From: Clostridiales bacterium
GTDB lineage: Bacteria > Bacillota > Clostridia > Caldicoprobacterales > DTU083
Direction: 5' to 3'
Length of the DNA: 53,544 nt
NCBI GenBank assembly: GCA_012839095.1
Contig: DUOA01000069.1
Coordinates: 1-53,544 of the forward strand
Below the pieces are notes generated by a model. The model was not told the DNA's origin, did not search any database, and was given only the letters and a program-made list of their open reading frames with translations. Position numbers and translations under genes: made by a program. The first letter of the stretch is position 1. Every line of letters begins with the position of its first letter. Of this stretch, positions 1 to 50,503 are shown piece by piece.

Positions 1-1869
1 ATGATTTAGGTGTCAAAAGCCCTAATAAATAATATTATCACTTGCACCTTGAAAACTTAACACAAAGCCCATAAGAAGCCCAATATATAGTATAATAGAG
101 ATATACTATTGATGGATACGAGAGGAAATTAACAATGTCTTTTGTCAAAAATGATTGTACCCAAATATCATTCAATGATAGCATGCTATCGCTTACTGAG
201 AGAGAAAGAAAATTTCTTGATAAATCCTGGGCAAAACCTTTTGCTGATAACATTTTTCCAGCAATAAAGGAAGATGATTTCGCTGTTCTATATAGTGATG
301 TAGCCTCCCGCCCCAACACTCCTGTTAATATCATAATCGGCTCACTTATTCTAAAAGAACTTTTAGGATTAACCGATGATGAGGTCATGGAGTCTTTGAT
401 GTTTGATATAAGGTTCCAGTATGCTCTTCATACGACCAGTTTCAAGGAACAACCGTTAAGCGATAGAACGCTAAGTCGTTTTCGTGAAAGATGTTTGACT
501 TACGAAGCCATGACAGGGATCGATCTCATAAAGAACTGCATTACCAGCCTTTCTGCTCAGATTGCTGATATCATGGGAATTAATATTGCTTTAAAGCGAA
601 TGGACAGTATGATGGTAGCGTCTAATATCAAGAAGCTCTCTCGTCTAGAATTACTGTACACTTGCGTAGCCAATTTTGTAAAACTTCTTCACAAGAATGA
701 CGATGATATACCAACCGGAATGGAACACTATTGTGAAGCCGATGACTATAACAAGGTTATTTATCATACACGAAGCATGGATATCAGTGAGAAGATGGAG
801 AAAGTCCTTTGTGATGCTTCTCTACTCGTGAAGAAATATGCTGGGCTCTATGGTGAAAGCAGCGAATACCAGCTTCTAGTGCGTGTCATTGGCGAACAAA
901 CCATAGAGGATGAAAATGGCTCCTTAGTTCTAAAGGATAAAAACGATGAAACTATGGACTCTTCAATTCTTCAAAACCCTGCTGACTCAGACGCAACCTA
1001 CAGATTTAAATCTGGCAAACAGCATCGTGGATATGTTGCTAACCTTACCGAAGATATAGGTGAAAATGCAAGTATTATCTCTGATTATGATTATCAGGCT
1101 AATACTTATAGCGACAGCCAGTTTCTAAAAGACACTATAGAAAGGCTGGGTAAACAGGAAGAGACACTTACCATAGTAGCTGATGGCGCATATGGCGGCG
1201 AAGAAAATATTACTATGGCAAAAGACAATAATATTAACCTTGTCACGACTAACTTTCAGGGAAAGAAACCTGAAGATATATTTGCCGAATTTGACTTCAG
1301 TCCCGACGGCAAAAAAGTTCTAAAATGTGCTGGTGGTCAAATACCAGCTACCAATAGTTACAACGCCAAGACGGAACAATGTCGCATTACACTGGATAAA
1401 GAAAAATGTAACAGATGTCCGTACAAGGATCAGTGTAAGCCGAAGTTTCATAAAACAAAGACTTCCAAAGTATTATCGTGGAAAACCACCTCAAGAGCTA
1501 AACAACTTCGGTACATGAAAACTTCAGAATTTATGGAGCTTGCGAAAATCCGTAATGGTATCGAATCTCTTCCATCAATACTTAGAAGAAAGTACCGTGT
1601 GGATGAAATGCCGGTTAGGGGAAGTCTGAAAACGAAGTTGTTCTTCGGTTTTAAAGTCGCAGCATTAAATTACAAGAAGCTACTGGATTATCTATCCAGT
1701 CTAGATAAATGCGCCTTGAAACTGGAATTTTGCTAGTAGTCCGAAGAGGATATTGCTCTTTATCAGTCTATAGAATCATCCTAGGGTAAAAATCTAGTTT
1801 TGTGTTAAATTTTCAAGGTGCAAATAGTGGTTTAGTTTACTAGTTGGTGTCTTTTGACACTCTAATCAT
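1..1869 (+). mobile_element. IS1182-family insertion sequence
   Basis: An insertion sequence with one transposase gene and imperfect terminal inverted repeats. The outer repeat is at 10-19 (GTGTCAAAAG) and 1851-1860 (CTTTTGACAC). It extends imperfectly to 1-19 against 1851-1869, with 16 of 19 positions matching. An inner inverted repeat around TTGCACCTTGAAAA lies at 42-66 on the left and about 1798-1823 on the right. Because the left repeat reaches base 1, the true left end and any target duplication may lie outside the window. No target-site duplication could be identified. The element is more AT-rich than its neighbours and sits about 70 bp upstream of the next gene. Confidence 0.85.
135..1736 (+). 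CDS. IS1182-family transposase
   Basis: Transposase of 533 residues, intact and in the normal size range for the family. The N-terminal third resembles the DUF772 transposase domain (segment around LSDRTLSRFRERC). The C-terminal half looks like a DDE catalytic domain. Candidate acidic residues are D157 (RMDSMM), D350 (VADGAYGG) and E477 (NGIESLPS). A zinc-like cluster, CNRCPYKDQC, lies before the last acidic residue, as in many IS1182 proteins. A GAGGAAA ribosome site precedes the ATG. The gene fills the element between the terminal repeats, so the IS appears autonomous. The family assignment is firm; the exact DDE residues are inferred by eye. Confidence 0.9.
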   Translation: MSFVKNDCTQISFNDSMLSLTERERKFLDKSWAKPFADNIFPAIKEDDFAVLYSDVASRPNTPVNIIIGSLILKELLGLTDDEVMESLMFDIRFQYALHTTSFKEQPLSDRTLSRFRERCLTYEAMTGIDLIKNCITSLSAQIADIMGINIALKRMDSMMVASNIKKLSRLELLYTCVANFVKLLHKNDDDIPTGMEHYCEADDYNKVIYHTRSMDISEKMEKVLCDASLLVKKYAGLYGESSEYQLLVRVIGEQTIEDENGSLVLKDKNDETMDSSILQNPADSDATYRFKSGKQHRGYVANLTEDIGENASIISDYDYQANTYSDSQFLKDTIERLGKQEETLTIVADGAYGGEENITMAKDNNINLVTTNFQGKKPEDIFAEFDFSPDGKKVLKCAGGQIPATNSYNAKTEQCRITLDKEKCNRCPYKDQCKPKFHKTKTSKVLSWKTTSRAKQLRYMKTSEFMELAKIRNGIESLPSILRRKYRVDEMPVRGSLKTKLFFGFKVAALNYKKLLDYLSSLDKCALKLEFC

Positions 1870-4981: not shown

Positions 4982-6076
4982 ATGCAGGAACCGTTATTGA
5001 AACTAATTAATATCAATAAATATTATGGCGATTCTCATATTTTGAAGGATATATCACTTGATATCAATGATGGAGAATTTTTGACCTTGCTGGGGCCTTC
5101 AGGCTGCGGTAAAACAACACTGCTTAGGTGTATTGCCGGATTGGTTAGTATAGAATCCGGCGACATTCTTCTGAGGGGAGAATCCATTAAGGATTTGCCT
5201 GCTAACAAGCGGAATGTAAATACAGTTTTTCAAAACTATGCCTTGTTTCCGCACCTGAATGTGTATGATAATGTTGCTTACGGGCCTCGAATCAGGAAGT
5301 CCATGAATGAGACTAAGCTGAAAAGACGAGTGGCTGAAGTGCTTGAAATGGTACAGATGTCCGGTTACGAAGAGCGAAGACCGCATCAGTTGTCCGGCGG
5401 GCAAATGCAGAGAGTAGCTATAGCGAGGGCCTTAATCAATGAACCTGACATCCTGCTGCTGGATGAACCGCTGGGAGCTCTGGATTTGAAGCTAAGAAAA
5501 TACATGCAGACAGAACTGGCTCAGCTGCAGAAACAAACCGGAACAACCTTTGTATATGTGACTCATGATCAGGAAGAGGCCCTTAATATGTCCGACCGGA
5601 TTGTGGTGATTCATGAAGGAAGGATTCTGCAATCGGGAAGTCCCAGGGAGGTTTATAACAATCCCCGGAACCTCTTTATTGCAAACTTTATAGGCGACAG
5701 AAATATCATAAAGGTTAAGGTCCTGGAAAAGGGTGATGAATATTCCAGGATTAGATTGGGAAACCACGAGTTATATATCAGATGTTCAGGCAATGCTGAA
5801 TGCGCCGGTGACATGGCTGTTCTGGCGATTCATATGGATAAGATGAGAATATCATGCAATGAAATGCCGAATTCCCTAACCGGTGAGGTACTATCCATCC
5901 ATTATGCAGGTTCACAGATTAGAACCGAAGTCAGTGTGGACGGTAAAAAAATCACAGTAATAGAGTACCGGAACAGCGACTGTGATTACGAAGCAGGAGA
6001 TCATGTGACAATAACATGGGAGGATTCCGGAGCTATACTTCTCCCAATGGAAGATTTTGAGGAAAATGGGATATAA
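4982..6076 (+). CDS. potA: Spermidine/putrescine-type ABC transporter ATPase PotA
   Basis: Cytoplasmic ATPase subunit of a PotABCD-type importer, 364 residues from the ATG at 4982. That start follows AAAGGAAA; the in-frame TTG at 4961 has no ribosome site. Walker A GPSGCGKTT is at 38-46, followed by the signature LSGGQMQRVAIARAL, Walker B ILLLDEPLGALD and the switch histidine in YVTHDQEEAL. The C-terminal ~90 residues form a TOBE-like regulatory domain. It overlaps potB. Placement directly after the aminotransferase and PurC-like genes suggests the transported molecule is their substrate or product. The family covers polyamines and other small amines or carboxylates, so the substrate is uncertain. 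Confidence 0.9.
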   Translation: MQEPLLKLININKYYGDSHILKDISLDINDGEFLTLLGPSGCGKTTLLRCIAGLVSIESGDILLRGESIKDLPANKRNVNTVFQNYALFPHLNVYDNVAYGPRIRKSMNETKLKRRVAEVLEMVQMSGYEERRPHQLSGGQMQRVAIARALINEPDILLLDEPLGALDLKLRKYMQTELAQLQKQTGTTFVYVTHDQEEALNMSDRIVVIHEGRILQSGSPREVYNNPRNLFIANFIGDRNIIKVKVLEKGDEYSRIRLGNHELYIRCSGNAECAGDMAVLAIHMDKMRISCNEMPNSLTGEVLSIHYAGSQIRTEVSVDGKKITVIEYRNSDCDYEAGDHVTITWEDSGAILLPMEDFEENGI

Positions 6077-10492: not shown

Positions 10493-10514
10493 TTCCCGTT
10501 TAGGGAATTTTTTT
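10493..10514 (+). terminator. Weak candidate terminator after MATE gene
   Basis: Short stem TTCCC / GGGAA with loop GTTTA, followed by a long T-run (TTTTTTTT). The stem has only five pairs, so efficiency is doubtful. Confidence 0.4.
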
Positions 10515-10577: not shown

Positions 10578-10610
10578 GCATGCAATAAATTGCTGCTGTT
10601 AATCGTTATA
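10578..10610 (+). promoter_or_regulatory. Shared upstream signature of the sigma-factor operon
   Basis: GCATGCAATAAA at 10578-10589 and TCGTTATA at 10603-10610 lie immediately upstream of the sigma-factor ribosome site. The same two words occur in the same order at 12318-12356, upstream of the second RsgI-like gene. The TCGTTATA word contains the CGT core often seen in ECF -10 elements. The gap between the words differs (13 here, 19 there), so it may be an operator or a composite promoter, not one fixed-spacing promoter. Confidence 0.5.
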
Positions 10611-10629
10611 TGATCAAAGGAGCTTGGAT

Positions 10630-11220
10630 ATGCTGCTGTTTACTTTTGTTTATGAAGATAATCCCGGAGAAAGCCGGAACAATAGGATAGAAATTGATGA
10701 AGGTCTTTTCAAGAGAATTGCAGGGGATGATATGACCGCCTTGGATGACTTGTATGGGATTACGGAAAGAACTATGTATGCATATACCCTTTCCCTTACA
10801 AAAGAGCATCAGCAAGCGCTTGATCTTATGCAGGAAACCTACGTCAAGGTGATTTCTGCGGCTCATTTGTATAAGCCAATGGGAAAGCCTCTGGCATGGA
10901 TGTTTACAATTGCAAGAAATCTTTATTATACAAAAGTTAGGAAGGATAAGAGAAGAATACTGGTTGAACCGCAGGAGGTATCGGATGACGTAAAATTCTC
11001 ATATGTGACGGACCTTGACGATCGCATAGTCCTGGAAGGAGTGCTGGCGCTGCTGTCTGAAGAGGAAAGGGAAATAGTACTGCTTTATGCTGTGTCGGGC
11101 ATGAAGCACAAGGAAATAGCGGAAAGCCTTGGGCTTAAACTTTCCACTACCTTATCCAAATACCATAGAGCCCTGAAAAAACTTAGAGATTACCTGATCG
11201 GAAGGGAGGCGAGGGCATGA
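10630..11220 (+). CDS. ECF-type RNA polymerase sigma factor
   Basis: A sigma-70 family factor of ECF size (196 residues) that would direct RNA polymerase to its own promoters. Region 2 spans about residues 33-105 (with DLMQETYVKVI and PLAWMFTIARN). Region 4 spans about 134-188, with a helix-turn-helix around MKHKEIAESLGLKLSTTLSKYHRALKKLR. The ATG at 10630 sits seven bases after AAAGGAG; a TTG at 10624 is less likely. Its stop overlaps the next gene (ATGA), which encodes the probable membrane anti-sigma partner. The neighbourhood suggests an envelope stress or surface-signal regulon. The target promoters are probably the two upstream signatures here. Confidence 0.85.
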   Translation: MLLFTFVYEDNPGESRNNRIEIDEGLFKRIAGDDMTALDDLYGITERTMYAYTLSLTKEHQQALDLMQETYVKVISAAHLYKPMGKPLAWMFTIARNLYYTKVRKDKRRILVEPQEVSDDVKFSYVTDLDDRIVLEGVLALLSEEEREIVLLYAVSGMKHKEIAESLGLKLSTTLSKYHRALKKLRDYLIGREARA

Positions 11221-12302
11221 GGGAAGAGAAGATACTGAACAGCTTGAAGAATTCAATTGAGCAGGCTCCTATAGATATACTTGATAAAATTAAGGCAGAA
11301 CCCAGGATAAAGATGTTGAAACATGACGATATTACCAGACAGAACAATAGGAGTTATCCGTTTAGAAAACTTATGTCCTATGCCGTTGCCGCAGCTGTAT
11401 TTGTAATTATGTTTTTCGGCTGGCAGTATCAAACCGGAATACCTGACAGCCGTGTCTATCTGGATGTAAATCCAAGCATTGAAATTGTATCCAACAGGCA
11501 GGATAAGGTTATAGGATTAAGTGCAGATAACCAAGATGGTAAGAGGCTTATTGAGGACCTGATGTATAAAGGAAAGAACATATATCAGGTAACAGAAGAG
11601 ATTCTGGACAGGATGATGAATGAACGCTATCTGAGCAGGGAAAGAGAAATCCTTCTCCTATCAATTTATAACAAAAACCAGAATAAGGCTGAGCAGCAAA
11701 AGCAAATCTTGGATGAAAGAATCCACGAGCATTTACAGGCAAAAGAACTGCAGCCTATAGTGCTCCTGCAGAAGCTGGATAATACTACAACCATTGAAAA
11801 GTATGCAAGGATGTATGGAATATCAGTAAGCAAAATGACCTTTATAAGGAATTTGATAATTCTTAATCCGGAGCTGCAACCGGAAGACCTCGCAGGCTTA
11901 AGCATTGAAGAACTGGTTAGATTAAGTCAGAGCATGGAGCTTGATTTGGAAAAGATTATAGAGTCTGCCGATATTGATAGAATCCGGACTCCATTACCTG
12001 AGCCGGATCCAGAAGAATCGCCGGATATTACTTCGCCTAATCAGGAGGTCGATAATGGCGATGATGACCATGATGACGACGATGATGACAACGATGACCA
12101 TGATGATGACGATTACGATTTTATTTCTTCAGAGAAGGCAAGGTCGATTGCCCTATCAGTCGCCGACGGAACCATAACTGATTTTGAGTTTGATGATGAT
12201 GATTTGGAATATGTAGTAGAAATTGAAGTGGAAGATTTGGAGTATGAAATAACCATAGATGCAAGAACAGGCGAGATTATAGAGATAGAAATAGATGACT
12301 GA
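11217..12302 (+). CDS. Membrane anti-sigma factor, RsgI-like, with C-terminal PepSY
   Basis: Predicted single-span membrane protein of 361 residues and the likely anti-sigma partner of the upstream sigma factor. Order: cytosolic N terminus (1-50), membrane helix (about 53-70), and an extracellular RsgI-like domain beginning YLDVNPSIEIVSN (81-93). A helical stretch follows to ~250, then a Pro/acidic linker, an Asp-rich tract (280-301) and a PepSY-like domain (303-361). The DVNPSIE segment contains the Asn-Pro pair (N85-P86) that in characterised RsgI proteins is a self-cleavage site leading to regulated intramembrane proteolysis. The ATGA overlap with the sigma gene supports coupling. Binding of this N terminus to the sigma factor is inferred. 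Confidence 0.75.
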   Translation: MREEKILNSLKNSIEQAPIDILDKIKAEPRIKMLKHDDITRQNNRSYPFRKLMSYAVAAAVFVIMFFGWQYQTGIPDSRVYLDVNPSIEIVSNRQDKVIGLSADNQDGKRLIEDLMYKGKNIYQVTEEILDRMMNERYLSREREILLLSIYNKNQNKAEQQKQILDERIHEHLQAKELQPIVLLQKLDNTTTIEKYARMYGISVSKMTFIRNLIILNPELQPEDLAGLSIEELVRLSQSMELDLEKIIESADIDRIRTPLPEPDPEESPDITSPNQEVDNGDDDHDDDDDDNDDHDDDDYDFISSEKARSIALSVADGTITDFEFDDDDLEYVVEIEVEDLEYEITIDARTGEIIEIEIDD

Positions 12303-12317
12303 AAATTTCTTTAAAAA

Positions 12318-12356
12318 GCATGCAATAAAAATGCAGCCTCGTGAGTTATCGTTATA
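12318..12356 (+). promoter_or_regulatory. Second copy of the shared upstream signature
   Basis: GCATGCAATAAA at 12318-12329 and TCGTTATA at 12349-12356, between the two RsgI-like genes. It is identical in both words to the copy at 10578-10610 but has a 19-base gap. It suggests that the second RsgI-like gene has its own promoter or operator under the same control. Confidence 0.5.
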
Positions 12357-12380
12357 GAATGGACAAGGAGGAGTTTATAA

Positions 12381-13778
12381 ATGAGATTCAAGAAAGCTTT
12401 TTATGTACTACCAATTATTATATTAGCAGTTGCTGTCGTGGGAGTAGTTTTAACCAGGCCGGCTAACTCGCTGACCATGGATGTCAATCCAAGCATCGAG
12501 ATTATAACCAATCGGCTGGATAGAGTTGTGGAGATAAAACCGTTAAACAATGATGCCAGGGATTTACTCGAAGACTTTGATCCCGGAAACAGGAATCTGG
12601 AAAGCACAGTAAACGATCTTGTGGATCTGTTAATCCTGACAGGGCATATAAGAGGCGGCGAAGATAATATTGTCATGATAACGGTTAAGGATGATTCTGT
12701 TGACAGCAGACTGGTGAATAAGGTTAATCAGGCAATACAGGCCATGCTTGAAAATAAGCAGATTGAAGCTACAATACTAAACCAGGCAATAGCAAGCAGC
12801 GACAGGGACGCGAATCAGACCGGTGTACAGCTGGCAGCTAAACGAATTCAAGAGATGGATGAGCGTCTGACTGCAGAAGAGATTGAATCAATGACAGTAA
12901 AGGAATTGATCCAGTACAGCAATAAGAACAATATAGCAATTGAAAGCCTTTTCAGGGTTGTAGCCGGAAATATCAATGAGAGTACAAGTTCAGGAGCAGT
13001 GATTTCCAGGGAAAAGGCAAAAGAAATAGCTCTTGCGCAGGTAAACGGCGAAATAATAAAGATTGAACTCGATGATTTACATGATGATGATGACCCGGAG
13101 TATGAAATAAAGATATTAGCAGATGGGGTAATATATGAGATAGAGATAGATGCCTATACCGGCCGGGTCGTAAAATTTGAGCGGGATGATGACGATGATT
13201 CAGAACCGGGCAGGAAAAACAATAATCTGATAACAGAAGAAGAGGCTTCCAGGATAGCGCTGGAGCTTGCAGACGGCGAGATTGTAAAGCTTAAATTGGA
13301 TGATGACGATGATGACGACGATGATCCGGAGTACGAGATAAAAGTAAATAAGGACGGTGTCATCTATGAAATCAAGATCGATGCAAGAACCGGGGGAGTG
13401 GAAGAGTTCGAAATTGATGACGATGATGATGATTACAGGAGCACCTCTGCTCAAAAACAGCAATCTAAATCAGAGACTGATAAAACACAGCAGCCGGTTC
13501 AGACCCATAAGCCGGAGCAGACACAGCAACCGGCTTCTACCCAGCAGCCAAAGCAAACCCAGCAGCCTAAGTCACATCATGCTTCAAGAGAAAGAATATC
13601 AGCAGATGAAGCAAAAGCAATAGCTCTTGAGCTTACCGGCGGGGGACGCATAACTGATTTTGAATTGGATGATGATGAATACGAGATAGAGATAAGAGCA
13701 AACGGCAAGGAATATGAAATTGAAATTGATGCCTATACCGGCAAGGTTCTGGACTTTGATGTAGAAGATGATGACTAA
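12381..13778 (+). CDS. Secreted/membrane-anchored RsgI-like protein with three PepSY domains
   Basis: Protein of 465 residues with a short N terminus and one membrane helix (about 7-25). An RsgI-like extracellular domain starts MDVNPSIEIITN (33-44) and carries the Asn-Pro pair N36-P37. Three PepSY-like domains follow (about 209-266, 285-345, 404-462), each ending in an EIxIDAxTGxV-type strand. Asp-rich insertions (around 234-238, 269-273, 307-315, 346-351) and a TQQP-type repeat linker (369-396) separate them. Only about six residues precede the helix, so it lacks a cytosolic sigma-binding part and cannot itself be a classical anti-sigma factor. It could be a co-sensor, a decoy or a divalent-cation-binding surface protein. 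GGAGGAG precedes the ATG. Confidence 0.65.
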   Translation: MRFKKAFYVLPIIILAVAVVGVVLTRPANSLTMDVNPSIEIITNRLDRVVEIKPLNNDARDLLEDFDPGNRNLESTVNDLVDLLILTGHIRGGEDNIVMITVKDDSVDSRLVNKVNQAIQAMLENKQIEATILNQAIASSDRDANQTGVQLAAKRIQEMDERLTAEEIESMTVKELIQYSNKNNIAIESLFRVVAGNINESTSSGAVISREKAKEIALAQVNGEIIKIELDDLHDDDDPEYEIKILADGVIYEIEIDAYTGRVVKFERDDDDDSEPGRKNNNLITEEEASRIALELADGEIVKLKLDDDDDDDDDPEYEIKVNKDGVIYEIKIDARTGGVEEFEIDDDDDDYRSTSAQKQQSKSETDKTQQPVQTHKPEQTQQPASTQQPKQTQQPKSHHASRERISADEAKAIALELTGGGRITDFELDDDEYEIEIRANGKEYEIEIDAYTGKVLDFDVEDDD

Positions 13779-13790
13779 TTGATGAAAGAG

Positions 13791-13816
13791 AAGGGAGGAT
13801 GAATTCCTCCCTTTTT
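13791..13816 (+). terminator. Rho-independent terminator after PepSY gene
   Basis: Stem GGGAGGA / TCCTCCC with loop TGAAT, preceded by AA and followed by TTTTT. It ends the sigma-factor/RsgI region. Confidence 0.88.
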
Positions 13817-45886: not shown

Positions 45887-47167
45887 TCAGCGGGTAAGTT
45901 TCAGCAGGTTCAACTTAGCCACAGACAGCATTAGCTTGATGCGGTTTTCCTGGTTGATCCTGGTTGCACCCGGATCATAGTCGATAGCAACTATATTGGC
46001 GTTGGGATAATTCTCTTTTATCTTCCGTATCATACCCTTTCCGGAGATATGGTTGGGAAGACAGCCGAAGGGCTGGGTGCAAACTATATTATTAACACCG
46101 GAAGAAATTAAATCCAGCATTTCCGCTGTAAGCAGCCAGCCCTCTCCCATCTTGACTCCTGTTCCGATATATCCCTGGACCAGTGATTTGATATGGTCAT
46201 AAGGAGAGGGAGCTCGAAAGCAAGGCTGGCTTCTTACTGCTTCTATAAGCAAATTCTGCATTTTTACAAGATAGTTTTTCAGGATGGATGAGAGAATGGA
46301 GGTCCCTCTGTTGATTCCGTAAAGTCTTGCATCTGTGGCCCCATTGTCGCAGGTATATATAATAAAATCCAAAAGTCCGGGTACTTCCACTTCTGCATCT
46401 TCCTGCTGAAGAAAATCTTCCAGGTTATTATTGCCCAGCGGTGAGTATTTCATGTATATCTCACCGACTATGCCCACCTTTACCTTATCAGTTTTCTTAA
46501 CCGGAACAGCTGCGAAGTCGGCTGCAATCTGCTCCATTCTTTTTTTTACTTTTTTAGTGTTCAGGAAACTGCTGCCTCTGAGTTCCCGGCTCAGCTGCCT
46601 GATCCATTTATTCGTCAGATTGTCCGAAGCACCCTGCTCGACTTCATAGGGACGGGTCTGATTGGACAAAAGCATCAGAATATCACCGTAAAGGACAGCA
46701 TATATCAATTGAACCAGCATGCCCGGAGTGATTATAAAACCCGGGTTTTTTTCCATCCCATTTAAATTAAATGAAATTACGGGGATATGGCTGAGGCCGT
46801 TTTTCTTCAATGCCTTTCGAAGCAGATATATATAGTTGGATGCACGACATCCTCCGCCGGTTTGCGTAATAATAAGTGCTGTCCTGTCAATACTGCACTC
46901 TCCCTTTTTGATGGCATCCAGCAGCTGTCCGATTACAAGAAGGGCGGGATAGCAGGTATCATTATGTACATTTTGTAAGCCTTCATCCACAATCCTAGCA
47001 TGGGTTGTCTTAAGCAGCTTCATCCTGTATCCGTATTTAGTCAGAATATTTTTCAGGAAGGTAAAGTGGATGGGCATCATCATTGGCATCAGTATGGTGT
47101 ATTCTTTTTTCATTTCTTTTGTAAACAGCAGTCTGCCGTCTTTTGTATATTTCAATTTGCTCATCAT
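45887..47167 (-). CDS. 2-hydroxyacyl-CoA dehydratase-like protein (second component of activase pair)
   Basis: Protein of 426 residues resembling the dehydratase-like C-terminal part of large CoA-enzyme activases. Conserved cysteines lie in HNDTCYPALL (C72), TQTGGGCRASNY (C107), FIIYTCDNGATD and VCTQPFGCLPNHISGKG. They are suitable to hold iron-sulfur clusters, as in HgdB/DCCP-type proteins. The ATG overlaps the stop of the upstream activase gene (ATGATGA), so both are made together. In many Clostridia this part and the activase are one polypeptide of about 1400 residues; here they are two genes. The redox or dehydration substrate is unknown. Confidence 0.75.
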   Translation of the reverse strand: MMSKLKYTKDGRLLFTKEMKKEYTILMPMMMPIHFTFLKNILTKYGYRMKLLKTTHARIVDEGLQNVHNDTCYPALLVIGQLLDAIKKGECSIDRTALIITQTGGGCRASNYIYLLRKALKKNGLSHIPVISFNLNGMEKNPGFIITPGMLVQLIYAVLYGDILMLLSNQTRPYEVEQGASDNLTNKWIRQLSRELRGSSFLNTKKVKKRMEQIAADFAAVPVKKTDKVKVGIVGEIYMKYSPLGNNNLEDFLQQEDAEVEVPGLLDFIIYTCDNGATDARLYGINRGTSILSSILKNYLVKMQNLLIEAVRSQPCFRAPSPYDHIKSLVQGYIGTGVKMGEGWLLTAEMLDLISSGVNNIVCTQPFGCLPNHISGKGMIRKIKENYPNANIVAIDYDPGATRINQENRIKLMLSVAKLNLLKLTR

Positions 47168-50094
47168 ATCTCTCCCTGTAATGAGACAGCTGCAATCAGA
47201 CTGCGCAGTCTGATTTTTGCAGCACCCAGATTGCTTATTTCATCGATTTTTATCTGGGTGTAGAACTTGCCTTTGGATTCCAGAATGTCTCTTACCTCAT
47301 CAGTTGTAATGGCATCCAGCCCGCAGCCAAAGGAAACCAGCTGAACCAATTGCATATTTTTGCATCTTGTTACATAATGGGCTGCTGCATACAGCCGGGA
47401 ATGATAGGTCCATTGGTCCAGAACCTGTACCTTTTGCTTTTTTTCCAGGCAGCTGATACAGTCCTCGGTTATAACAACCAGGCCCAGGGCTTGAATTAAT
47501 TGATCGATGCCATGATTAACCTCCTTATCAACATGATAAGGCCTGCCTGCCAGCACAATAATATTTCGATTATTCTCCTTTGCATACTGTATGGCAGTAA
47601 GTCCATATTTTCTGATATCGTCCATATAGCGGAATTGTTCAATATATGCTTTTTCTACTGCTGCTTTGGTAACCCTTGCCGGTATATTAAACATTTCCTT
47701 AAAATAACTGCTCGCTCGCTTTGTGAACTGCTTTTTATTCGACAGGGAAAAATAAGGGCAGTGGAATTCAATTTCAGCCAAAGCCGAGACATTTGCTTTT
47801 AAAAGTTCGGGGTAATAGGCAACCACAGGGCAATTGTAATGGTTGTCTCCAAGGTCTTCGTCAAAGTTATAGGTCATGCAGGGGTAGAATATTGTTTCTA
47901 TGTCCTGTTCCAGCAATTGTTCAATATGACCGTGCATCAGCTTGGCAGGATAGCATACCGTATCGGAGGGGATGGTATGCTGCCCCTTTGTATACAATTC
48001 TCTGGTGGAATGGCCGGACAGAACTACCTCAAAGCCCACATCGGACAAAAGGGTATGCCAGAAGGGCAGGTTCTCATACATGTTCAGCCCCATGGGCAGG
48101 CCTATTCTGCCCAGAGGCGCATTTTTCAGGGGCTTATATTCCTCCAGACGTTTCAGCTTGTATGCATATGCATTGGGAAGTCTGGTCTTATCTTTACTGC
48201 CAAGAGGTCTTTCGCAGCGATTGCCGGAAATGTATCTGGCATTACCGGAAAACAGGTTCACTGTAAGCCTGCAATTATTGGTACAGAGCCTGCACTGGGC
48301 AGCTTTTGCCGTATGGGTGAACTTAGCCAGTTCCAATGCATTTAAAATGGAGGATTCTGTCTTGTTCAGGGACTTTGCATACAAGGCTGCCCCGAATGCA
48401 CCCATGAGACCTGCTATGGGCGGCCTGGTTACCTCCTTTTCTGTTTCCATTTCAAAGCTGCGCAAAATAGCATCATTGAGAAAGGTTCCACCCTGTACAA
48501 CTATATTATCGCCCAGCTCATCGGGGGAGGAAACGCGGATTACCTTGTATAATGCATTTTTTACGATGCTGACTGCCAGACCGGCAGAAATATCGGAAAT
48601 ATCGGCTCCGTCTTTTTGTGCCTGTTTAATGGAAGAATTCATAAAAACCGTGCATCTGGATCCCAGATCCACCGGGTGCTCAGCGAAAAGTCCCAGTTTC
48701 GCAAATTCTTCTATTGGATATCCCAGCGCCTGGGAATAGGTATCAATAAAGGAACCACAGCCTGATGAGCAAGCTTCATTCAGCATGATGGAGTCTACTG
48801 CATTGTTCTTAATCTTAAAGCACTTGATATCCTGACCGCCTATATCCAAAATGAAATCTACCCGTGGATTAAAAAAACGGGCTGCAAAAAAATGGGCAAT
48901 GGTTTCAACTATATTTCCATCCAAATGAAAAGCATGCCTTATCAGTTCTTCCCCATATCCGGTAGAGGCACCGGAGCAAATGCGGATTCTGCCTGCTCCG
49001 AGCTGATATATCCTTTGAAGATGTTCCTTAACTAAGGGAATGGGTTCTCCATAATTGGATTGATAGAAACTATACAGGAGGTCTCCATCGGGGGATATCA
49101 AGACCAGTTTTATGGTGGTAGAGCCGGCATCTATGCCAAGATATGCATCACCTGTATATGTGCTGATATCAACATGTCTTACTTTGTCTTGGCTGTGCCT
49201 GCTTTTGAATTCCTGATACTGTTTTTCGGATTCAAACAAAGGCGGAAGAGATCTTAAAATATTTTTATAGGTCAGCGACTGCTTAAGCTTGTCCATCAGT
49301 TCATTGTAATCCATGGCAGTCCGGTTCATGCTGTAAAGTGCAGCTCCCAGGGCAACGTAAAACTCGGCATTTTTAGGAAACAAGGCATGCTCCCGGTCCA
49401 GCCCCAATGTTTCAACAAAACGTTCCTGAAGCCCTTTCTGAAAGGTAAGCGGGCCTCCCAGAAAAGCCACCCTGCCCCTGATGGTCCGCCCCTGGGCCAA
49501 TCCGCCTATTGTCTGATCAACCACCGCCTGATATATACTGGCAGCTATATCGGCTTTGTTTGCCCCCTGATTGAGCAGAGGTTGTATGTCGGATTTGGCA
49601 AACACACCACACCTGGAAGCTATGCTGTATATTTTCTCGTGTTTAAAACTCAGTGTGTCCAATTCCTCTAAAGAAACATTCAGGAGGGAGGCCATTTGAT
49701 CGATAAATGCCCCTGTACCACCGGCACAGCTGCCATTCATTCTTTCTTCCGTACCGCCGGTAAGGAAGAGGATTTTTGCATCTTCTCCTCCCAGTTCAAT
49801 AACAACATCAACATTGCATAAGCAATCTTCAACTGCTATTCTGGTGGCAAATACCTCCTGTACAAATTCTATTCCGGTATCCCTGGACAAACCCAGTCCT
49901 ACTGAACCTGTAATAGCAACTTTCAGACGCTTCCCCTTCAGAAGATCTTTCAGATCGTCTATCAGCTGTACAGTTGTCTCCCTCACCCTGGCGTAATGCC
50001 TGCCGTAATGTTTGTATTGTATATTTTTGTGTTCATCCAGTACAACTGCTTTTACAGTTGTTGAACCGATGTCAATCCCAATGAAGCAATCCAT
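47164..50094 (-). CDS. Double-activase (BadF/BadG/BcrA/BcrD) plus DUF2229 protein
   Basis: Protein of 976 residues with two ASKHA ATPase domains and a C-terminal DUF2229-like region. ATPase 1 starts GIDIGSTTVKAVV, with Fe-S cysteine motifs SCAGGTGAF and SRCGVFAKSD. ATPase 2 starts GIDAGSTTIKLVL, with ACSSGCGSF and SRCTVFMNSS. A Cys motif CRLCTNNCRL follows, then the C-terminal part (IPSDTVCYPAKLMHGH, LAGRPYHVDKEVNHG, FGCGLDAI). Such proteins use ATP to drive low-potential electron transfer to a dehydratase or double-cubane-cluster partner and need anoxic conditions. The start at 50094 follows AGGTGA; the frame extends six codons upstream. It overlaps its partner gene by four bases. Confidence 0.85.
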   Translation of the reverse strand: MDCFIGIDIGSTTVKAVVLDEHKNIQYKHYGRHYARVRETTVQLIDDLKDLLKGKRLKVAITGSVGLGLSRDTGIEFVQEVFATRIAVEDCLCNVDVVIELGGEDAKILFLTGGTEERMNGSCAGGTGAFIDQMASLLNVSLEELDTLSFKHEKIYSIASRCGVFAKSDIQPLLNQGANKADIAASIYQAVVDQTIGGLAQGRTIRGRVAFLGGPLTFQKGLQERFVETLGLDREHALFPKNAEFYVALGAALYSMNRTAMDYNELMDKLKQSLTYKNILRSLPPLFESEKQYQEFKSRHSQDKVRHVDISTYTGDAYLGIDAGSTTIKLVLISPDGDLLYSFYQSNYGEPIPLVKEHLQRIYQLGAGRIRICSGASTGYGEELIRHAFHLDGNIVETIAHFFAARFFNPRVDFILDIGGQDIKCFKIKNNAVDSIMLNEACSSGCGSFIDTYSQALGYPIEEFAKLGLFAEHPVDLGSRCTVFMNSSIKQAQKDGADISDISAGLAVSIVKNALYKVIRVSSPDELGDNIVVQGGTFLNDAILRSFEMETEKEVTRPPIAGLMGAFGAALYAKSLNKTESSILNALELAKFTHTAKAAQCRLCTNNCRLTVNLFSGNARYISGNRCERPLGSKDKTRLPNAYAYKLKRLEEYKPLKNAPLGRIGLPMGLNMYENLPFWHTLLSDVGFEVVLSGHSTRELYTKGQHTIPSDTVCYPAKLMHGHIEQLLEQDIETIFYPCMTYNFDEDLGDNHYNCPVVAYYPELLKANVSALAEIEFHCPYFSLSNKKQFTKRASSYFKEMFNIPARVTKAAVEKAYIEQFRYMDDIRKYGLTAIQYAKENNRNIIVLAGRPYHVDKEVNHGIDQLIQALGLVVITEDCISCLEKKQKVQVLDQWTYHSRLYAAAHYVTRCKNMQLVQLVSFGCGLDAITTDEVRDILESKGKFYTQIKIDEISNLGAAKIRLRSLIAAVSLQGEI

Positions 50095-50503
50095 TATTTC
50101 ACCTGTTCTCACTTTTACTTCGTTTTAACATCAGAAATAGTACAGAGGATAAGCTGAACTGCTTAAGAATCCTTTGCTGCTTGAATTTTGTCCGGCTAAT
50201 CCTGCTAATGAACTATATATAATGTGATTAATATATTATTGGAGATATTATATCTATTATATCCCGCTTATAAAATATAATCAACTTTGACAGTCCGGCC
50301 ATGGCGGCCTTATCTGCATTATTAAGGCTTTATGCATGGTTCGGGCAATATGGCACCATATACTGTATATCCCTTAGCAATTGTTGTATAATAAGGGGGA
50401 CCGGACAACCAAAAATATTTTTCTGTTTTATGTTAAATTTATGTCCTAAATGAAACGAAGTGGATAGTCAATTGCATTTAAATTATGAAAGGAAGGATAT
50501 TGC
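50095..50503. other. Intergenic region between divergent activase and isomerase genes
   Basis: About 410 AT-rich bases. It contains the minus-strand promoter listed separately and a TATAAT at 50387-50392 that might serve the plus-strand gene but lacks a convincing -35. No ORF or RNA was recognised. Confidence 0.5.
50256..50284 (-). promoter_or_regulatory. Promoter of the activase operon
   Basis: On the minus strand, TTGATT (50284-50279), a 17-base spacer and TATAAT (50261-50256), about 160 bp upstream of the activase start. Confidence 0.6.

Follow-up and report, generated by a model that had tools for sequence, protein, structure and literature searches.

A predicted ECF sigma factor switch with an RsgI-type self-cleaving ectodomain and an acidic PepSY companion protein in a Clostridiales genome

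Why an RsgI-like ectodomain is encoded behind an extracytoplasmic function (ECF) sigma factor, and what a second RsgI-like protein does beside it, are the questions raised by a three-gene module on contig DUOA01000069.1 of a Clostridiales bacterium (assembly GCA_012839095.1). The window, meaning the whole stretch of 53,544 nucleotides that was analysed, carries this module at positions 10581–13813. It comprises the sigma gene, the gene of a membrane protein (the partner) and the gene of a second protein with an RsgI_M domain (the satellite), and all three genes are real. As read from the sequences, the module is probably an autoregulated ECF sigma/anti-sigma switch, with a predicted RsgI-type self-cleaving ectodomain, release within the membrane and a putative feedback co-sensor.

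The sigma gene and its ribosome-binding site are located as follows:

10616–10622, plus strand: ribosome-binding site AAAGGAG, read from the sequence.
10630–11220, plus strand: ECF sigma factor of 196 aa with regions 2 and 4, from profile search.

The earlier note on this DNA had called the product an ECF sigma factor, and the profile search bears this out, with matches to Sigma70_r2 (9.5e-12) and Sigma70_r4_2 (3.1e-13) and no region 3. Since regions 2 and 4 are both present, the protein is an ECF factor and not SigI; a SigI control in Pfam presented region 2 only, whereas the window sigma has region 4. The list of open reading frames places the start at TTG 10624, but ATG 10630 is preferred and is most likely the true start, because of its spacing from AAAGGAG and because orthologues start with MLI/MLLFTFVYE. 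The module start given in the earlier note, 10578, falls within the promoter region.

The partner gene begins inside the sigma gene and encodes the following parts:

11217–12302, plus strand: membrane partner, putative anti-sigma factor, 361 aa, one-pass, from profile search and homologue alignments.
11217–11357, plus strand: cytosolic N terminus (residues 1–47), the putative sigma-binding part, with two predicted helices (2–15 and 19–27) and no RsgI_N.
11361–11432, plus strand: transmembrane helix (residues 49–72), from the model and the hydrophobicity of the sequence.
11454–11849, plus strand: RsgI_M/SEAL-type domain (residues 80–211), from profile search (2e-27).
11469–11474, plus strand: predicted self-cleavage bond N85-P86, from homologue alignment and the chain starts in PDB structures.
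12060–12119, plus strand: Asp-rich tract (residues 282–301), from sequence composition.
12123–12290, plus strand: PepSY domain (residues 303–358), from profile search (3.9e-11), model and fold match.

The overlap between the two genes noticed before is of four bases (11217–11220), and exactly the same overlap was found in 19 ECF-paired genes of the family sample described below. Profile searches for RsgI-mid (RsgI_M) and PepSY, which the earlier note had proposed, matched both families in partner and satellite, and the partner is indeed an RsgI-like domain with a tail of one PepSY unit. In its AlphaFold2 model, built with 13 sequences (confidence score, pLDDT, 80), two N-terminal helices and the membrane helix are followed by a domain of mixed alpha/beta type and by PepSY, the latter with pLDDT about 95. 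Fold matches of the partner to RsgI periplasmic structures span Z 13–17; the middle domain matches RsgI of Bacillus subtilis (8t9n) with Z 16.7 and a root-mean-square deviation of 1.8 over 107 residues, and RsgI2 of Clostridium thermocellum (8hdj) with Z 15.3 and a deviation of 2.9 over 151 residues.

In the RsgI periplasmic domains of the PDB, chain B starts at the Pro aligned with P86 of the partner and P37 of the satellite, so the known RsgI cut lies between N and P. The positions proposed before for this bond, N85-P86 and N36-P37, are correct, with DVNPS in both proteins. No variation occurs at D83, N85 and P86 among 31 ECF-paired homologues, or at the equivalent residues among 31 SigI-paired ones. 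By analogy, we infer that the window proteins cleave themselves at the N-P site. For C. thermocellum, cleavage of the ectodomain is described as the step that begins RsgI signalling (PMC12203970). A gene for a site-2 (M50) protease is present in the genome (G000:C31), and self-cleavage followed by intramembrane release is predicted here as the likely course, from the same analogy.

The earlier note held that classical RsgI pairs with SigI and not with an ECF factor. This was compared in a sample of 135 RsgI_M reading frames from relatives, from 391 genomes of the class Clostridia and from 13 loci found with the window protein. The statement holds for the 69 of 135 frames that lie behind SigI, and fails for 48, of which 34 stand directly behind a sigma of the window type and 14 behind a more distant ECF gene; these represent a widespread RsgI_M branch. 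The sample was filled with the best scores first and counts the 13 loci just named; it is non-random, and 48/135 is not a prevalence. Of the remaining frames, five count by their position as satellites that accompany ECF pairs; for the other 13, often located at the end of a contig, no sigma gene is within reach. Selected distant ECF genes were checked in Pfam and contain regions 2 and 4.

In a matched comparison in Pfam, RsgI_N was found in none of 31 ECF-paired proteins against 30 of 31 SigI-paired ones, and PepSY in 24 of the former against none of the latter. RsgI_N (PF12791) was not found by Pfam in the window partner either, nor in three ECF-paired proteins of other branches. Thus the partner N terminus switches with the sigma class across the RsgI_M family, and the earlier idea of an RsgI-like domain attached to an ECF partner acquires a definite form, that of a different, sigma-matched N terminus. 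In the window partner this N terminus belongs to the motif family '..L+.A....PD.LD.I'. Gene order, gene overlap and the sigma-matched swap suggest that the N-terminal helices hold the sigma factor, and the partner is very probably an ECF anti-sigma factor, as predicted from sequence comparison.

In the tree of the 135 RsgI_M domains, which has only 134 columns and therefore weak deep forks, the ECF-paired set of the window type forms one clade (support 96/80), and a larger clade results when the satellites are included (98/86). As exceptions, one SigI row on a long branch is nested among the satellites, and two rows from contig ends group with the ECF-paired proteins. Separate gains of ECF pairing appear elsewhere in the tree, in L082–L085, in short proteins such as L059, and in L168. 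The distant-ECF-paired loci without PepSY, and without RsgI_N where scanned, are L082–L085, L049, L057, L059, L141, L142, L150, L160, L162, L172 and L168, the last a protein of 1020 aa with an fn3 match. Because these other ECF-paired branches lack PepSY, the domain is a trait of one lineage and no requirement for ECF pairing.

The suggestion that PepSY replaces carbohydrate-binding modules is sustained by the 24 of 31 ECF-paired proteins with PepSY; Pfam found no carbohydrate-binding module and no glycoside hydrolase (GH) domain in the module proteins, only PepSY. The C-terminal tails are also more acidic in the ECF-paired set, with a median net charge per residue of -0.16 against -0.01 for SigI-paired tails (Mann-Whitney p 3e-12, with rows that are not independent), and this difference rules out that the Asp tracts are mere chance. 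Among relatives the tail consists of tandem PepSY, of pure Asp/His tracts, or of both. In L034, L037 and L033 long Asp/His/Arg repeats, up to about half Asp, take the place of PepSY.

The second question concerns the satellite, whose parts are:

12381–13778, plus strand: satellite of 465 aa, with five cytosolic residues, a transmembrane or signal helix, an RsgI_M domain (31–147) and three PepSY units.
12486–12491, plus strand: predicted self-cleavage bond N36-P37, from alignment with PDB RsgI chains.
13002–13763, plus strand: three PepSY units (about residues 208–265, 285–345 and 405–461) with Asp tracts between them, from profile search and model.

Its description as an RsgI-like domain with three PepSY units agrees with the profiles (RsgI_M 1.5e-20; PepSY stretches 1e-41), and Asp-rich tracts were found as claimed, six short ones here besides that of the partner. 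A cytosolic sigma-binding part had been said to be absent, and in fact the protein begins with MRFKK followed by a strongly hydrophobic helix. With only five residues before this helix the satellite cannot hold sigma in the cytosol, and since it has a second set of the outer domains but lacks the inner part, its action is confined to the outside. Its fold matches to RsgI periplasmic structures have Z 10–13. Eight satellites were found in all across the genomes compared; they form one clade of the RsgI_M tree (99/98), so that the satellite is a long-standing companion and did not arise here by a recent duplication. The genome scan found no RsgI_M protein beyond partner and satellite, and the search of viral contigs found no satellite relative. 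In the Clostridium sp. MCC353 genome (L211, 494–3333), another RsgI_M protein, whose start (LTGC) resembles that of a lipoprotein, is encoded after a SigI-RsgI pair; satellite-type proteins may have arisen beside SigI systems too.

Two predicted promoters connect the satellite with the sigma operon:

10581–10609, plus strand: predicted ECF promoter of the sigma operon, -35 TGCAATAAA (10581–10589) and -10 CGTTAT (10604–10609), with conserved spacing.
12321–12349, plus strand: predicted ECF promoter of the satellite, -35 TGCAATAAA (12321–12329) and -10 AGTTAT (12344–12349), conserved before eight satellites.

The common pattern is TGCAATAAA-N14-nGTTAt, and with one mismatch allowed three sites were found in the window against 0.03 expected. 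For the satellite, CGTTATA was rejected as the -10 box, since its spacing is 23 and not 17; AGTTAT, 17 bases after TGCAAT, fits the copies. G026, G014 and G028 retain the pattern at both genes, and G012 retains it at the satellite, its sigma gene not being on that contig. A matrix built from them recognised TGCAATAA-type boxes, with the spacing varying by ±1, before about two thirds of the 34 ECF-paired sigma genes, mostly with p 0.01 or better against shuffles; other families usually have GCATTA as the -10 box. All eight satellites are preceded by the promoter. In G402, where the satellite lies on a different contig from its sigma, both promoters read TGCAATAAA-N14-nCATTG; in G363 both carry GTTATATATAT; and in Clostridium MCC353 the promoter appears as TGCGATAAA before a satellite that lies ahead of sigma. 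Because sigma and satellite have this promoter in common, here and in relatives, it is highly likely from the sequences that the satellite belongs to the regulon of the module's sigma. Of the separate co-sensor postulated in the earlier note, the shared promoter substantiates a second protein of the same circuit, while the co-sensing role itself is a proposal.

The strict pattern has three exact matches in the genome, at sigma, at the satellite and at 5656–5683 on the minus strand; the last was attributed to chance, as it lies antisense inside a PotA-like ABC-transporter ATPase gene with no gene downstream. One-mismatch sites in the own genome numbered 11 against 3 in a reversed control, and none was a convincing promoter when inspected singly. 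Most of 16 further genomes with an ECF pair contain the strict motif a single time, at the sigma gene; extra copies are found in coding sequence or facing no clear gene. Two pairs of related genomes had no convincing additional site in common; the extra sites shared were one coding-like and one before a nicotinate phosphoribosyltransferase gene with a poor -10 box. Since the strict motif stands almost only at the module in the genomes searched, the regulon looks very narrow, with the limit that a strict search may miss weaker sites.

We propose the following course for the switch. At rest, the ECF sigma factor would be held by the pair of short helices at the partner's N terminus, and the ectodomain would have cut itself at N85-P86, its halves remaining joined through the beta sheet, as expected by homology. 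When the acidic PepSY tail reads a signal, the outer fragment would be pulled off or loosened; the M50 site-2 protease would then cut the membrane helix, and the freed sigma would transcribe the satellite gene along with its own operon. From outside the membrane, the satellite would act on the ligand or surface that the partner reads, as a buffer or competitor giving negative feedback and as a co-sensor; its other conceivable roles are those of a helper presenting the ligand or of an effector. We give the feedback co-sensor somewhat less than an even chance. A more general proposal, which we regard as doubtful, is that the circuit is self-contained: this ECF sigma would directly control nothing but its self-cleaving sensor and a second copy of it, blind to sigma and free to be encoded away from the operon. 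That SEAL/PepSY copy, whether free or membrane-held, would cap the cleaved sensor again, compete with it or titrate it out, and the sensor protein would be input and output in one. SEAL ectodomains would on this view be interchangeable modules, grafted several times onto anti-sigma factors of both ECF and SigI.

Several observations weigh against the autoregulated switch. The partner N terminus gave no match to a known anti-sigma domain, such as the class I or zinc-finger anti-ECF type, in Pfam, and a profile of 15 N termini had no significant hit in the PDB; the satellite model is weak (pLDDT 67); and the strict promoter search gave no clear targets outside the module. The ECF-paired relative L177 (2245–3430) has E-V-N-P in place of D-x-N-P, and the L033 satellite has no N-P strand, starts like a signal peptide and looks secreted, which indicates that self-cleavage is not essential to the satellite role. 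L177 is a natural test of the cleavage-site Asp.

The satellite could instead be an effector and the very purpose of the switch, an acidic PepSY protein, held at the surface or shed, that binds metal ions or inhibits proteases. Its strong negative charge, the precedent of UipA (PMC8963506) and a strict-motif regulon of almost nothing but the module agree with this; most related two-gene systems have no satellite, which shows that it is not needed for the switch and speaks against its being the purpose. The retained SEAL domain and N-P site would also be needless for a plain effector, but L033 has lost the site. We consider this role possible, at the lower end of that word.

Regarding the signal, for which the earlier note had suggested a protease or a cation, the tandem PepSY resembles the solved structure 9vy3 by sequence, and a fold search with PepSY matches the metal-binding UipA. 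UipA binds uranyl via a negatively charged face (PMC8963506), and LanPepSY binds lanthanides (PMC12482762). These matches to metal-binding PepSY proteins, by sequence and model, make cation sensing plausible, and a divalent or trivalent cation is tentatively named as the ligand from sequence likeness; acidity alone is no proof of metal binding by the PepSY units. Much the same tentative standing is given to sensing of the cell wall or of mechanical force, as proposed for B. subtilis RsgI, in which the PepSY tail would be a stalk or wall anchor and the signal tension or a wall defect. The SEAL fold and cleavage site are the same as in RsgI, the tail type varies as widely as that of a stalk may, and the PepSY fold also matches YpmB and YpeB of Bacillus. 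On the other hand, PepSY is kept in the 24 of 31 homologues and is well folded in the model, more than a disordered stalk requires.

It is unlikely that the PepSY units serve as bait for, or inhibit, a surface peptidase that would release the ectodomain by its attack. PepSY is named after peptidase propeptides, and fold matches to metalloprotease propeptides reach Z 6–7, but these score no better than unrelated cystatin-like folds, and no peptidase gene is in the module or was found under the promoter. The reading as a polysaccharide sensor of the classical SigI/RsgI kind, its sigma wrongly typed, has only the RsgI_M domain in its favour and is ruled out, to our minds almost completely, by sigma region 4 and by the lack of RsgI_N and of any carbohydrate-binding domain.

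The module is bounded on both sides by terminator-like elements, of which the scan of the region found four against 2.0 expected:

10493–10507, plus strand: terminator-like hairpin with a T run, from the terminator scan, dividing the module from an upstream MATE-type transporter gene.
13791–13813, no strand assigned: inverted repeat with T runs, the likely module-end terminator, found by the scan on the minus strand; the plus strand also enters CCCTTTTTC.

Elsewhere in the window, two large frames at 45887–50112 (minus strand) resemble a protein of the CoA-dehydratase-activator type, 982 aa long with a doubled ATPase, and the partner of that protein, and a transposase-like reading frame occupies 135–1736 (plus strand) at the contig end.

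A literature search found no paper joining RsgI and PepSY, although papers on SEAL domains and on ECF reclassification lay outside it and an earlier mention is possible. The family offers a large, defined set of ECF systems for which a release mechanism can be tested and both a promoter and an accessory protein are predicted, and with it a route to asking what PepSY domains sense.

Among known systems, sigma24C/Rsi24C of C. thermocellum joins an ECF sigma to an anti-sigma with a large ectodomain and has been grouped with the SigI/RsgI pairs (PMC3990059). From its GH5 domain, upstream ECF gene and gene order, we infer that L186, in a C. thermocellum-like genome, is this locus. L186 combines an N terminus of the CxxC type with GH5 and lacks RsgI_M, and sigma24C/Rsi24C was therefore rejected as a direct precedent; the window partner, unlike it, has RsgI_M and no GH5 ectodomain. 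UipA, which spans the membrane once and has an acidic face, and LanPepSY share with the module an extracytoplasmic tandem PepSY (PMC8963506, PMC12482762). They have no SEAL domain and no sigma partner, and metal binding is known for them. In Vibrio cholerae, the separate PepSY protein DbfQ controls the DbfS sensor (PMC12714742). The likeness lies in a small PepSY protein from the sensor's operon that tunes a membrane sensor; DbfQ differs in acting on a histidine kinase, with no SEAL domain and no sigma factor. Like SigI/RsgI of B. subtilis and C. thermocellum, the module has a one-pass anti-sigma gene behind the sigma gene and a SEAL/RsgI_M ectodomain with a D-x-N-P site, for which release by a site-2 protease is expected (PMC12203970). 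Unlike them, its sigma is an ECF factor, two short helices stand in place of RsgI_N, the tail is PepSY and Asp instead of carbohydrate modules, and a satellite is included in the predicted regulon. The module is RsgI-like outside the membrane and ECF anti-sigma-like inside, and with region 4 present and RsgI_N absent it is no member of SigI/RsgI. The ectodomain of self-cleaving type is thereby separated from SigI: a single release device would serve sigma factors that are held in two unrelated ways, the cytosolic part being exchanged to match.

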